Origin: Synechococcales cyanobacterium C42_A2020_086
Lineage (GTDB): Bacteria; Cyanobacteriota; Cyanobacteriia; Elainellales; Elainellaceae
Direction: 5' to 3'
DNA: 64,000 nucleotides
Assembly (NCBI GenBank): GCA_015272325.1
Contig: JACYLU010000028.1
Span: 62,001 to 126,000 of the forward strand
Below the pieces are notes generated by a model. It did no database searches, was not told the origin of the DNA, and saw only the letters and a program-made list of their open reading frames with translations. Both the position numbers and the translations under genes were made by a program. Shown here piece after piece: positions 12,367 to 62,227 of this stretch. Position 1 is the first letter of the stretch. Every line of letters starts with the position of its first letter.

Positions 12367-13716
12367 CTATCCTTGGCGGCGCACCCGACCCACGGTACGC
12401 AGCACTTCTACCAGCATGTCTAGGGCAATCTCTTTGCCGGGGCAGATTCGTCCGGCGTGGCGCTCACCAACCGAGTGAAAGCCCATGTGGTAAGGGCAGA
12501 GGTTTTGCCGCTGAGCATCGAACTCGTAAGTGGTAGCTCCCCAGAAGCTCTCGTCGAGTAGACCCAGACTCATGGGAATCAGGATTTTGGTGCCCGCCGG
12601 AAAAGTGTAGTCGCTGCCGGCCATCGAGGCTGTAAAGGGTTCGGTGGCGATGCGGTGGGTGGCGCTGACGGGGGCCCAGAGGCGAGCACACTCCAGCAAA
12701 TACAGCCGCACGGCTTGCCGATCGTCTAAATCGAGGGCGTCCCAGTGCTGCACAAGATCGATCTTGGCGGTGTTTTGATGGCGATAGGCAGGCAGCGGTC
12801 GGTAGCCCATGGCGGTGTAGCCGAGATGCAGCGGTCCTTGTAGTGCGGCAATACCCATAATTGCGGTCATCAGCTTGGCTAGTTCGCGCCGCGTCATCTG
12901 GTGATAGTCAGGATGATTCTCCTCAAACTTCGCCAAAGCCGGCGACTGCTCGTAGATCGTGGCGGCTTGCTCGATTAAATCCGGCAGCTCAGCGTGCCCC
13001 AAGGCATTGCTCTGCCGCAGCAGACTGCCAATTCCTGCCAAATAGTGCAGCGGGCTGAGGCGCGTGTAGTGCAATTCGGTGAGCAGGTGAATGGCGTCCT
13101 GATCGTCAGGATGGATGCCAAACATCACATAGTGCAGATAGCGGACCAGAAAGCCCATCCAACCGCGCTGCACGTCGGTAAAGAAAGCGCCGCCGGCATC
13201 GTGGGGCATCTGGCGATAGTCTGCCGCGAGCTGATCGAGTAAGCGTTGCGCTATGTCGTCTTGTTGACGGTCGCTAGCAGCTTCATTCAGCACGTAGCGC
13301 TGCATACAGGACCGAAACGCTTCGTGATCGCCTGTGCCTCCGGCCGCCTGATCCGACAGGGCCAGCAGAAAGACGTTCCTCCCACCTACATCCAGGTTAG
13401 GGGCATGGTTGGCGTCCAGCACCGATGTTCCCAATCGCCACGTGCGGGCCTGCGGTGAGGTGAGGGCCGCTTCCAGCGTTGCGAACTCGCCCAGTACCAC
13501 CTGCCCAGCACAGCAGAAATTAGGTCCAAAGATGCGTCGCTTGGTATCCAGATAGGTCGGCTCATTGGCCACAATACCTTCCGCAAAGCTGATGATCGGC
13601 AGCAGCGCTTTACTCATCTCCGCTTCGGGGTGCTGCAACGCCCAGATGTGAAATTTATGAAAGGCCTGATCGAGAAAGGGGGCAATCCCGGCTGGGTCAT
13701 CCAAATTGAAATTCAT
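12367..13716 (-). CDS. cytochrome P450, probably acting on fatty-acid hydroperoxides
   Basis: The P450 signature parts are in order: the K-helix ExxR as ECAR in LLECARLWAPV, the meander, then the heme loop FHSVGERHAGRICPGKEIA with the proximal Cys. The I-helix region (about LMTAIMGIAALQGPLHLG) lacks the A/G-G-x-D/E-T oxygen-activation motif. That is typical of P450s that rearrange peroxides, such as CYP74 and related enzymes, rather than of monooxygenases. The gene lies 40 bp downstream of the lipoxygenase gene on the same strand, so lipoxygenase product is the obvious substrate. I prefer ATG 13716 (449 residues), with AGGAGA upstream, over TTG 13752. The precise activity (allene oxide synthase, hydroperoxide lyase, epoxyalcohol synthase or isomerase) cannot be decided. 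Confidence 0.75.
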   Translation of the reverse strand: MNFNLDDPAGIAPFLDQAFHKFHIWALQHPEAEMSKALLPIISFAEGIVANEPTYLDTKRRIFGPNFCCAGQVVLGEFATLEAALTSPQARTWRLGTSVLDANHAPNLDVGGRNVFLLALSDQAAGGTGDHEAFRSCMQRYVLNEAASDRQQDDIAQRLLDQLAADYRQMPHDAGGAFFTDVQRGWMGFLVRYLHYVMFGIHPDDQDAIHLLTELHYTRLSPLHYLAGIGSLLRQSNALGHAELPDLIEQAATIYEQSPALAKFEENHPDYHQMTRRELAKLMTAIMGIAALQGPLHLGYTAMGYRPLPAYRHQNTAKIDLVQHWDALDLDDRQAVRLYLLECARLWAPVSATHRIATEPFTASMAGSDYTFPAGTKILIPMSLGLLDESFWGATTYEFDAQRQNLCPYHMGFHSVGERHAGRICPGKEIALDMLVEVLRTVGRVRRQG

Positions 13717-13756
13717 GAAATGTAGTGTTCTCCTAAACGGTGCATTCTGCAACTCG

Positions 13757-16102
13757 TCAGATGTTAATACTCTGAGGAATCTTCGCTGGCTTCAAATACT
13801 CGTATACAGGGCGTTCCTGATTGCGCCGATCGATAATTTGATTTATTTCCTGCAAGCGCTGCTGGAATGCCTGTAGCGGCTTGTTCACTCGGGCATCGCT
13901 AAAGTGATTCTCTTCATAGTCTCCTAGCTTGGTAAAGTACACCGATCCCAGGAGAGTCAGCAGATTTAACTGATGCTGGGCTTGATCCAGCGGCGGCAGC
14001 AGATCGAGCCAGTCCTGATAGGTGCTGTCAGGACCAATGCCCTTGGCGGATCGGTAGCCGGCAGTGGGCACAGCAGGCGCAAAACTCATGATGCCACTTT
14101 GGGGAAAATTGACGGCGGCATGTTGGGCGCTGCCAGTGAAAATCACCATCGTCACCGCGTCCACGAGATAGGCGAATGTGGCAATCTGGCCATCACCCGC
14201 ATCGCCAAAATCCGTGAGTCGTCCGCCGTCAAAGGCGACGAGTTCCGCCGCCCACTGCTGCACGGATTGATCGCTCTGCACGGCCTGATCCGAGTCGTAG
14301 AACAGCCGTAGATACGCCTCGACCCAGTCATGAATTGCCTTCCAGATCAGCAACCCATCATCGCGGTAGGGGTAGACTGGCAACCCTTCGGAATCAGCAA
14401 CACCGCGATCCTGCAAGCGTCGCGGCAGCATGTCGGCATTAAATCCGCGAGCCTGGAAGCCGCGCACAATCAGAACGCGGGAATTATCAATCGTAGAGGA
14501 CAGCAGCCCATTGACGCCGCCTTGGGGAGCCACAAGAAACTGATGGGCAGAATTGTTGATGGCGAGCGTGCCTTGAAAGTGCGGCACCAAGAGCTGAAAC
14601 AACGGATGGGTCGGGGCGAGCTGCCGATGGGTAGCGATTACAAACGGCTCAATTAGCAGGTGGGTGCGAGCAAAGTGAGACACCGCTTCGTGGACATTAG
14701 TGTCGGCAATCTGAACAACCGTTTTCGCCATCAGCCAAGCGTTCGCCCCTGTAGCTGGGGTAATCACTGGATACTCAGCAGGGGATTGTCCGCACTGGAT
14801 GGCCACCGGGCGCAGCAGTCGATCCACCGCTCCGGCCGCCGGAACTGCAAATAGAGCCAGCGGCGCGTAGAGGTATTTCTGGGTTTGAGGCTGGGTGCCG
14901 TAGGTGCCGCCCAAGGCTCCATCTAGAATCGCAAAATCTGCCAGGTAGACTCGCCCCTCGTCCATGGCGGTTTGCAGCGAATCTGCCGGGCCCATAACTG
15001 CCTGATACTGCTCTTCGGTGACGGGGAAGCGGGGATCGGGAGTAGTCAGCCGTTGAATCATTATTGGGTTAGGACCGGCCACCCGCAGATAGGCAAACAC
15101 CACATCGTCTTGAAAGGTGTCGGCAATTTCGGGGAGATCCACATAGGCAAACAGCTTGCGGTAGTCCTCTAGGCTGCTGGGGCGACCGGCGGGAGCTTTC
15201 TCCTTCAGCCCTTCAACAATATTTTGGGCAAACGGTTGCAGAAAGCCTTCGCCCAGCACCTTGAGCAGATTCGACGCTACAAACGGCTGCACTTCGGCTT
15301 CATTCGAGGGAATACCTCGGAGCGGCTGTTTCAGTGCCCGTTCAATTTCGATTGCGAGATCGCTTGTTGCCACCTCAACATCAACCTGCATCGGCACGAC
15401 CGGCTGCGATGGAGCATCTGGATCAGTCCGAATTGGGGTCACCTGCACCTGAATGTCTGTTCCTGGAGCCACAATTGCCGGCGGCACCGCTGCAACCGCC
15501 ATCCCGACGCTTTGAGAGGCCGCCACTGCCACCGCCATCTCTGGGGAAGAGCCACTCTGCAGCAGCTTCTCGAGAGCCTCCTTGACTTTCTGAGTCACCT
15601 CCCCCACCGCAGGAGTCGCCATCGGAGCAGCAGGATTAGCCGCGCCCATCCCCCGAGTCGCCTTCTGGGGATCCAACATCTGCTGGACCCACGGCGGCAG
15701 CAAACTTTTGAGCGCGGCAACCAGCTTCAACTGAAATTCTGGACCTTCCTCCTGCAGCGTTTTCAGCAGCATACGCCGCAAGAACGCCTGCACATCGTCT
15801 GTTGCTCCCGGCTGACCGCGATCGCCTTGATTGGCAATCAGCATGTTAATCGCCAATTTGATGATTTGCATGCCCGTTAGCACCAGCCAGGACTGAGAAA
15901 AGGTCTCATTGGGCGGCAAAGCTGCTACCATGGCCGCTGGTTCAATATAGGTATAGTTGTACTCATAAATACTTATAGATGTCTGTGCCAACGGTTGTAC
16001 AGAGGGTGGCAACGGCTGTAAAGGCGATTGCAAAAGTTGTTCTGATTGTGGTGCGTTTTGCGCTTCATTATTGATGTTTTGCACTGCATTAATATTATTC
16101 AT
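13757..16102 (-). CDS. lipoxygenase
   Basis: Lipoxygenases insert O2 into polyunsaturated fatty acids. The core starts near RPSSLEDYRKLFAYVDLP, followed by VVFAYLRVAGPNPIMIQRL. The iron ligands are visible: the two His of HEAVSHFARTH, then IEPFVIATHRQLAPTHPLF, HAAVNF (His and Asn), and the terminal Ile of SINI. The first 290 or so residues are not the usual PLAT barrel: they are Gln/Pro/Ala-rich with helical stretches (LVLTGMQIIKLAINMLIA) and are unrecognised. The start at ATG 16102 is preceded by AGGAAGGA. A 66-bp tandem duplication covers this ribosome site and start. The P450 gene follows in the same operon. Confidence 0.9.
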   Translation of the reverse strand: MNNINAVQNINNEAQNAPQSEQLLQSPLQPLPPSVQPLAQTSISIYEYNYTYIEPAAMVAALPPNETFSQSWLVLTGMQIIKLAINMLIANQGDRGQPGATDDVQAFLRRMLLKTLQEEGPEFQLKLVAALKSLLPPWVQQMLDPQKATRGMGAANPAAPMATPAVGEVTQKVKEALEKLLQSGSSPEMAVAVAASQSVGMAVAAVPPAIVAPGTDIQVQVTPIRTDPDAPSQPVVPMQVDVEVATSDLAIEIERALKQPLRGIPSNEAEVQPFVASNLLKVLGEGFLQPFAQNIVEGLKEKAPAGRPSSLEDYRKLFAYVDLPEIADTFQDDVVFAYLRVAGPNPIMIQRLTTPDPRFPVTEEQYQAVMGPADSLQTAMDEGRVYLADFAILDGALGGTYGTQPQTQKYLYAPLALFAVPAAGAVDRLLRPVAIQCGQSPAEYPVITPATGANAWLMAKTVVQIADTNVHEAVSHFARTHLLIEPFVIATHRQLAPTHPLFQLLVPHFQGTLAINNSAHQFLVAPQGGVNGLLSSTIDNSRVLIVRGFQARGFNADMLPRRLQDRGVADSEGLPVYPYRDDGLLIWKAIHDWVEAYLRLFYDSDQAVQSDQSVQQWAAELVAFDGGRLTDFGDAGDGQIATFAYLVDAVTMVIFTGSAQHAAVNFPQSGIMSFAPAVPTAGYRSAKGIGPDSTYQDWLDLLPPLDQAQHQLNLLTLLGSVYFTKLGDYEENHFSDARVNKPLQAFQQRLQEINQIIDRRNQERPVYEYLKPAKIPQSINI

Positions 16103-16192
16103 TTATTATTCATTTCCTTCCTCGATCGCTTCATTATTGATGTTTTGCACTGCATTAATATTATTCATTTATTATTCATTTCCTTCCTCGAT
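16061..16192. repeat. 66-bp perfect tandem duplication over the lipoxygenase start
   Basis: Two identical 66-bp units (16061-16126 and 16127-16192) each contain the minus-strand ribosome site AGGAAGGA, the ATG and the first 14 codons of the lipoxygenase. Because 66 is divisible by three, the upstream copy keeps the same reading frame. Confidence 0.95.
16106..16168 (-). CDS. 20-codon upstream ORF created by the duplication
   Basis: The duplicated start at 16168 reads MNNINAVQNINNEA, continues IEEGNE and ends in TAA TAA directly before the lipoxygenase ATG in the same frame. It has the same ribosome site as the main gene. If translated, ribosomes would stop right at the lipoxygenase start, so it could act in coupling or attenuation. 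It may equally be neutral. Confidence 0.35.
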   Translation of the reverse strand: MNNINAVQNINNEAIEEGNE

Positions 16193-61738: not shown

Positions 61739-62227
61739 ATGAAAAGGCTAACGATTGCTGCGCTATCGGGATTCGTGGGAGCAGTTACCGTTTTAGGAGC
61801 AGAACAGGCGCAAGCCTACTACGAAGACTCATGGGAGTTTGTCTGCGGCTGGGAATGCGGTGAGGCGCTATTTGAACCTGAATACGGCGGCTATACCGTA
61901 CATGGTTATGCTGAGGTCTACCACAGCAACTTACCCACTTCCGAGGGGGAAGCTGCCTCATGGGCTTACTACGACTACTGGCTGCCCGCTGGCTGCGATC
62001 AGTACTATAGCTATTCAGCTCAAGTTGTTTGCCTAGACACCGCCTACCTACACGGACTCAGCGCCTGGGAGTATTTTTCTAGCCTGTATGCCCATCTCCC
62101 CGAAGAGGAAATGGCCTGCCGTGTCATTGATGAGCGGGCCTACTGGCGTGATCCCTATGCCCCTTACGTTGAGGGCTGGTCCAACCGCGATGCTGACTTG
62201 GCAAGCGTTGGCAACTGCTGGGGTTAA
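61739..62227 (+). CDS. secreted Tyr/Trp-rich, Cys-containing protein of unknown function
   Basis: A 162-residue protein with a signal peptide (IAALSGFVGAVTVLGAEQAQA, cleavage near residue 26). The mature part is strikingly rich in Tyr and Trp (YYEDSWEFVCGWECGEA, SWAYYDYWLPAGCDQYYSYSAQ) and has six Cys, likely in disulfides. It is acidic and has no membrane anchor. I do not recognise the family. It stands alone, with large spacers on both sides. Confidence 0.7.
   Translation: MKRLTIAALSGFVGAVTVLGAEQAQAYYEDSWEFVCGWECGEALFEPEYGGYTVHGYAEVYHSNLPTSEGEAASWAYYDYWLPAGCDQYYSYSAQVVCLDTAYLHGLSAWEYFSSLYAHLPEEEMACRVIDERAYWRDPYAPYVEGWSNRDADLASVGNCWG

Follow-up and report, generated by a model that had tools for sequence, protein, structure and literature searches.

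A conserved lipoxygenase-P450 gene pair in cyanobacteria as the probable core of a bacterial oxylipin operon

Within the 64,000-nucleotide stretch of DNA analysed here (the window), which spans positions 62,001 to 126,000 of contig JACYLU010000028.1 from Synechococcales cyanobacterium C42_A2020_086, a lipoxygenase (LOX) gene is followed on the same strand by the gene of a highly divergent cytochrome P450, here called P450A. Both genes are intact, the P450 has lost the acid-Thr pair of its I-helix, the linkage and co-occurrence of the two are conserved in other cyanobacteria, and the neighbours of the pair in relatives include a patatin-like lipase and an epoxide hydrolase. We consider it fairly probable that these genes constitute a bacterial oxylipin operon, in which a lipase, the LOX, a P450 hydroperoxide isomerase (most likely an epoxyalcohol synthase) and an epoxide hydrolase would act in succession. 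The features concerned are given below; the LOX residues come from an alignment with 31 LOX rows, the P450 motifs from alignments, and the P450 residues are numbered from the TTG codon at 13752.

13757..16102, minus: LOX gene, 781 aa, with the catalytic domain at about residues 300-781 and an N-terminal extension of about 300 residues without a Pfam match
14660..14677, minus: LOX iron ligands His476 and His481
14546..14548, minus: LOX Ala519
14108..14122, minus: LOX iron ligands His661 and Asn665
13760..13762, minus: fifth LOX iron ligand, the C-terminal Ile781
13717..13756, minus: 40-bp gap from the LOX stop to the P450 ATG, holding AGGAG at 13730-13734
12367..13716, minus: P450A gene from the ATG at 13716, 449 aa; the open frame 12367-13752 reaches the TTG
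12817..12861, minus: P450 I-helix, residues 298-312, with Gln305-Gly306 in place of the acid-Thr pair
12682..12693, minus: P450 ExxR motif, E354-C-A-R357
12442..12444, minus: P450 heme-ligand Cys437 in GRICPG

It is the I-helix that sets the P450 apart. The window protein reads IAALQGPLHL, with the acid replaced by Gln and the Thr by Gly; the classical motif of O2-activating monooxygenases, [AG]Gx[DE]T, is absent from this helix, and a motif scan found no [AGL]Gx[DE]T[TSL] anywhere in the protein, in agreement with the sequence-only reading, which had described a P450 without the oxygen-activation Thr. The pattern IA[AG]LQGPLxL is common to all 17 aligned P450A members, in which the marks of the P450 superfamily are invariant, namely the ExxR (E354/R357), the heme Cys (C437) and the basic residue of the C-helix (R147). 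The LOX, on its part, belongs to the lipoxygenase family by its match to PF00305 (Lipoxygenase; E=1.7e-61, residues 329-776) and by a complete His3-Asn-Ile set of iron ligands (H476, H481, H661, N665 and I781), which the same reading had listed down to the terminal Ile. PF00305 is its sole match in the Pfam scan, which found no fused catalase-like heme domain, and an NCBIfam search returned no match for it. Its best solved relative in the PDB is 8x8f (E=3.4e-116, residues 299-781), 4g32 matches at 1.7e-109, and the structures matched include both bacterial and animal LOXs. Ala519 occupies what we take to be the Coffa-Brash position, where Ala presumably predicts S stereochemistry. As a side observation, the start of the LOX gene is spanned by a perfect 66-bp tandem duplication (16061..16192, minus; TRF, 2.0 copies, 100% match), the upstream copy of which opens a 20-codon frame whose stop lies directly before the LOX ATG and of which 14 codons are the same as the first 14 of the LOX; this frame could possibly couple translation.

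The two genes were correctly placed 40 bp apart on one strand by the sequence-only reading, given the ATG start of the P450, which is backed both by the frames of relatives, beginning there, and by the AGGAG 13 nt upstream; with the TTG as start, the gap would be 4 bp. The gap holds no terminator-like site on the minus strand in a promoter/terminator scan, which gave no more sites than shuffled sequences and is hence uninformative apart from this point.

The sequence-only reading was also right in calling the P450 highly divergent. Against PF00067 the window protein scores 13.4 bits, under the curated cut-off of 22.8, which is a library threshold and not a biochemical criterion; NCBIfam and PHROGs searches returned no match, and in a phmmer search of the PDB the best P450 match stands at E=0.049. 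A profile of 17 P450A rows, run against the PDB, matched no P450 at E<=1, and the six rows that it did return (among them a CCR4-NOT subunit, E=0.008, and an IP3 receptor) were taken as chance. The fold is nevertheless that of a P450 in an AlphaFold model built from 17 sequences, itself modest (pLDDT 60, pTM 0.61): the best 50 of 827 Foldseek matches (E<=10) are all P450s, the best at E=4e-6, and a VIA comparison gave Z up to 17.0 with a root-mean-square deviation of 4.3 over 317 residues.

Central to the argument is the conservation of the pair. P450A was searched for in 117 relatives, in 386 phylum-sample genomes (at E<1e-100) and in named loci, and it was found in 6 of the 117 and 8 of the 386, the window's own genome being counted in both, as well as in 18 named loci. 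Merging of overlapping records gives 25 cyanobacterial genomes, among which the member at locus L047 is partial and the two Crocosphaera loci are apparently duplicates. Two further weak matches, in genomes G135 and G195, turned out to belong to a second group, P450B. A LOX lies within 1 kb of P450A in 11 of the 25 genomes. It precedes P450A in the window, in Elainella, Pegethrix and Chamaesiphon, and in a Leptolyngbyaceae metagenome-assembled genome (MAG) whose LOX is split into two frames; it follows P450A in G247, G253, G335 and two Crocosphaera MAGs; and in Gloeocapsa the two genes point towards each other across a 0.9-kb interval containing a hydrolase fragment. Members of the family share 57-76% identity with the window protein, and the proportion of non-synonymous differences, pN, stays far below the synonymous pS (0.15-0.29 vs 0.70-0.87 in five comparisons). 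Together with the recurrence of the pair in other genomes, this identity and this constraint argue that the linkage seen in the window is not a matter of chance.

Co-occurrence extends beyond linkage. All 13 whole P450A genomes searched (seven of the phylum sample, the window's own and five relatives) carry a LOX, and the unlinked LOXs of G006 and G089 are 62% and 65% identical to that of the window. In the phylum sample a LOX is present in 8 of 8 strong P450A genomes vs 59 of 386 overall (Fisher p=2e-7; p=0.013 at genus level), p-values that are optimistic, the genomes being related; the list of LOXs in the 386 genomes is a lower bound, with only two candidates scored in most genomes, and an independent search with PF00305 arrives at the same background rate (44 of 283 genomes). 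The LOXs beside P450A range from 56-72% down to 39% identity to the window LOX and stand at three places of the LOX tree, with three label changes forced by supported branches, so that one P450 family pairs with quite different LOXs. Instead of three gains, these three places may reflect a single gain with two losses. In this tree L038 and some others form long branches, and the split LOX of L018, which is too short, was left out.

A wider search, which goes beyond what the sequence-only reading had proposed, revealed that the pairing with LOX recurs with several P450 groups (G, C and L numbers below denote genomes, contigs and loci). P450B is 17-22% identical to the window P450 and reads AGTAGTS in its I-helix, and three of its members pass the PF00067 cut-off (60.5-71.5 bits). 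When P450B itself served as query, 8 of the 386 genomes proved to have it, and in all eight it lies downstream of a LOX, no more than 0.5 kb away, and is followed by a small gene, c2; in G135 two tandem P450B copies stand behind one LOX (L029:8029-10918). P450C, with AGTRNV in the I-helix, occurs in two genomes, G241 and G367, and adjoins a LOX in each. In G130 a P450 relative of 31% identity, with SANFSTPGG, stands next to a LOX from a different subfamily, and P450s of a further type, D, adjoin 668-aa LOXs of another subfamily in G241, G209, G464 and G178 (L148:3031-4770, L149:2651-4381, L152:7271-8998, L198:7280-8650). Three of the type D P450s are 575-579 aa long, their N-terminal 150 aa or so being repetitive, with a weak FRG1 match in L148.

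Altogether, a P450 lies within 1 kb of 19 of the 76 intact LOX ORFs (open reading frames) from the phylum samples, always on the same strand. The count takes intact ORFs over 433 aa; L193, L195, L196 and L197 (none) and L194 and L200 (fragments) were dropped, and G135:C112 is a LOX fragment only and stands outside it. The P450s were recognised by hidden Markov models from the P450 groups and conventional rows, by which a further type of P450 could be missed. The PF00305 search of 283 genomes also recovers the LOX of G367:C59 and adds that of G178:C5, where a type D P450 lies 64 bp away on the same strand; G137:C117 has a LOX without a P450. In two genomes a LOX of 49-52% identity is followed by two conserved genes that are not P450s (L083:8443-11401, L084:8351-11288), of which, in L083, one has a sub-threshold cyclase match and the other a TPM domain.

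The acid-Thr motif is absent from all 15 P450A, B and C rows and present in all 18 conventional P450s from six genomes. The latter were drawn from 22 PF00067 matches, leaving out L125 (a 385-aa frame) and L139 and L141 (two matches of one 385-aa frame), which are short or partial, and L140 (identical to P450B). In the P450 tree, A and B are separated from the 18 conventional P450s and one C row with support 100/98, and the grouping with ordinary monooxygenases that would have refuted the sequence-only reading was not seen among these rows. Since its stems are long and it includes neither CYP74 nor CYP152 rows, the tree attests no more than a separation from the conventional P450s of cyanobacteria, and long branches may have helped to join A and B.

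The neighbours of the pair in relatives are equally instructive. In Elainella and Pegethrix (2 of the 25 loci) a patatin-like lipase (PF01734 and DUF3376) follows LOX and P450A on the same strand. An epoxide hydrolase lies next to P450A in G006, in Chamaesiphon and, as a 130-aa fragment ORF, in Gloeocapsa; it is an alpha/beta hydrolase whose best solved relative is 5ng7 (E=2.6e-36), the top 13 rows are all named epoxide hydrolase, and it carries HGFPE and HDWG, which we take to be marks of that family. In G006 the P450A, the epoxide hydrolase and a conventional P450 stand in a row on one strand (L016:4794-8602), and the LOX is on another contig. The third neighbour, c2, is a protein of 181 aa from a family of about 180-214 aa and adjoins P450A in 8 of 25 loci and P450B in 8 of 8 (L023:8997-9560, L028:9795-10349, L029:10954-11541, L034-L037, L040, L042, L044, L079-L082, L155, L156). 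It follows the P450 of either group, but precedes it in L044. It is possible that c2 is a further enzyme or a carrier of the pathway. Of 15 genomes searched, seven have c2 (five P450A genomes without a LOX-linked P450A and two P450B genomes), among them G089, where it is located away from P450A; it is absent from all seven genomes with a LOX-linked P450A, the window's included, and from G006. Three members of c2 had no Pfam match at E<=0.1, and the PDB gave one non-significant match (E=0.09). Its model is mostly beta and weak (pLDDT 52.5), and a fold search with it returned nothing at E<=0.001; an assignment of c2 as an allene oxide cyclase or any other named fold was consequently set aside.

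The tie to LOX, the missing motif and the conserved pair are together what comparison would lead one to expect of a P450 that uses hydroperoxides, which makes this the likely function of P450A. We infer the substrate, the product, the direction of the pathway, co-transcription and all of its chemical steps. A patatin-like lipase, such as stands beside the pair in relatives, would supply free fatty acid, and LOX would add oxygen to a polyunsaturated C18 fatty acid, giving a hydroperoxide of probable S configuration. The P450 would take this hydroperoxide both as substrate and as oxygen source, with no need of O2, NADPH or a redox partner, and would isomerise it at the heme, an epoxyalcohol being the most likely product. 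The epoxide hydrolase that stands beside the P450 in relatives would then hydrolyse the epoxide, yielding a trihydroxy fatty acid. We favour epoxyalcohol synthesis since the epoxide hydrolase recurs as a neighbour and trihydroxy fatty acids would be the result.

Several observations weigh against this pathway. No LOX was seen near 14 of the 25 P450A loci, although the six such genomes searched carry one elsewhere; c2 adjoins eight of these loci, an epoxide hydrolase one, and nothing linked to the pathway the other five, three of which lie on short or truncated pieces. Conversely, a P450 within 1 kb is lacking for 57 of the 76 intact LOX ORFs, and the co-occurrence was counted over related genomes. 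Only 3 of the 25 loci have an epoxide hydrolase beside P450A, and in the window genome nothing resembles it closely (best 33%). The AlphaFold model of P450A is weak. The acid-Thr pair is also lost in some true monooxygenases and in peroxygenases, and the LOX-linked type D P450s keep [DE]T in two of three members read, so that linkage to LOX is not always paired with loss of the motif. It is this retention in type D, along with the conventional P450 that follows P450A and the epoxide hydrolase in L016, that speaks for a redox-partner-dependent monooxygenase further oxidising the LOX product; given that the acid-Thr pair is lacking throughout P450A and that P450A stands apart from the 18 conventional P450s, we give this only a slim chance.

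A peroxygenase like CYP152, with H2O2 or the LOX hydroperoxide as oxidant and another fatty acid as the molecule hydroxylated or decarboxylated, appears just as improbable. A joint A+B profile does reach CYP152A1 (1izo, E=3.2e-4) over the heme region, but several other P450s outscore it there, up to 8.6e-7; the I-helix of CYP152 carries Arg-Pro, where P450A has Gln305-Gly306-Pro307 and no Arg, and a dedicated LOX would be unnecessary for such a reaction. An allene oxide synthase (AOS) or hydroperoxide lyase (HPL), with c2 in relatives acting on the allene oxide or aldehyde, would draw on the same genomic evidence, and the adjacency of c2 to both P450 groups, together with its predicted mostly beta structure, fits such a role. 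We still regard this as unlikely, for the epoxide-hydrolase neighbour suits an epoxyalcohol or other stable epoxide better, and c2 has no detectable relative, a weak and unmatched model, and no counterpart in the window genome.

How does the probable epoxyalcohol pathway relate to known systems? The plant cascade of LOX and CYP74 (AOS, HPL, divinyl ether synthase and epoxyalcohol synthase (EAS)) likewise places a P450 without the oxygen-activation motif after a LOX. The I-helix of plant AOS reads FN(321)TwGGMKI, with an Asn and a GG motif, in the available part of PMC13049297. P450A has IA[AG]LQGPLxL instead, and its genes are adjacent on one strand; neither the window protein nor the family profile found a CYP74 chain in the PDB at E<=1. 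Filing P450A under CYP74 was rejected on the I-helix motif: of the bacterial CYP74 route suggested by the sequence-only reading, the LOX-tied P450 without the oxygen-activation motif in a conserved pair stands, and membership in CYP74 is not supported. The P450B profile has CYP74A2 (3dam) as the fifth of its 48 matches (E=7.2e-6); among the VIA matches listed there is no CYP74 chain, which excludes nothing. According to the text available of PMC8124189, CYP74 proteins are present in plants, algae, Metazoa and some Proteobacteria.

Within cyanobacteria, hydroperoxide conversion is attributed to catalase-related fusions in the accessible portions of PMC8124189, PMC6627107 and PMC11507377. The AOS-LOX fusions of Acaryochloris and Anabaena (PMC8124189, PMC6627107, in part) also join a LOX to a hydroperoxide-processing heme protein, but the heme partner here is a separate P450 and not a fused catalase-like domain, the LOX matching PF00305 only and its neighbour PF00067 only, weakly. 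The fungal dioxygenase (DOX)-CYP fusions (linoleate diol synthase, EAS, AOS; excerpts of PMC13049297) similarly couple a fatty-acid dioxygenase to a self-sufficient P450 with an altered I-helix; their dioxygenase is a fused heme protein like cyclooxygenase, as against a non-heme-iron LOX and a separate P450 here. Myxococcus xanthus combines a bacterial LOX with an epoxide hydrolase to give hepoxilins and trioxilins, and Escherichia coli with the LOX alone made hepoxilins (PMC5760719, in part), whereas here a P450 would act in between. CYP110, CYP120 and other conventional cyanobacterial P450s share the fold, the ExxR and the heme Cys (sections of PMC7014017); the 18 retrieved with PF00067, which bear no assigned CYP names, differ in keeping the acid-Thr motif and in grouping apart from P450A. 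The words lipoxygenase and oxylipin are absent from the main text of that survey, and among the open-access matches listed, subscription papers and supplements lying outside the scope, there was no paper on a cyanobacterial LOX-P450 pair.

It is about an even proposition that CYP74-like chemistry evolved independently several times in cyanobacteria, with at least three P450 groups without the acid-Thr pair (A, B and C) as dedicated LOX partners, which with the patatin-like lipase, the epoxide hydrolase and c2 would make up a complete, previously undescribed bacterial oxylipin cascade, and that A and B form a new P450 clan, the A branch of which scores below the Pfam cut-off. The LOX-P450 operon, if real, would show a convergent origin of the oxylipin cascade, and its product would probably be a signalling or defence lipid. 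Malyngic acid from Lyngbya is a trihydroxy fatty acid of cyanobacteria, and the genes described here would be candidates for the formation of such compounds. They would also represent self-sufficient P450s of a kind likely missed by surveys that rely on Pfam thresholds.

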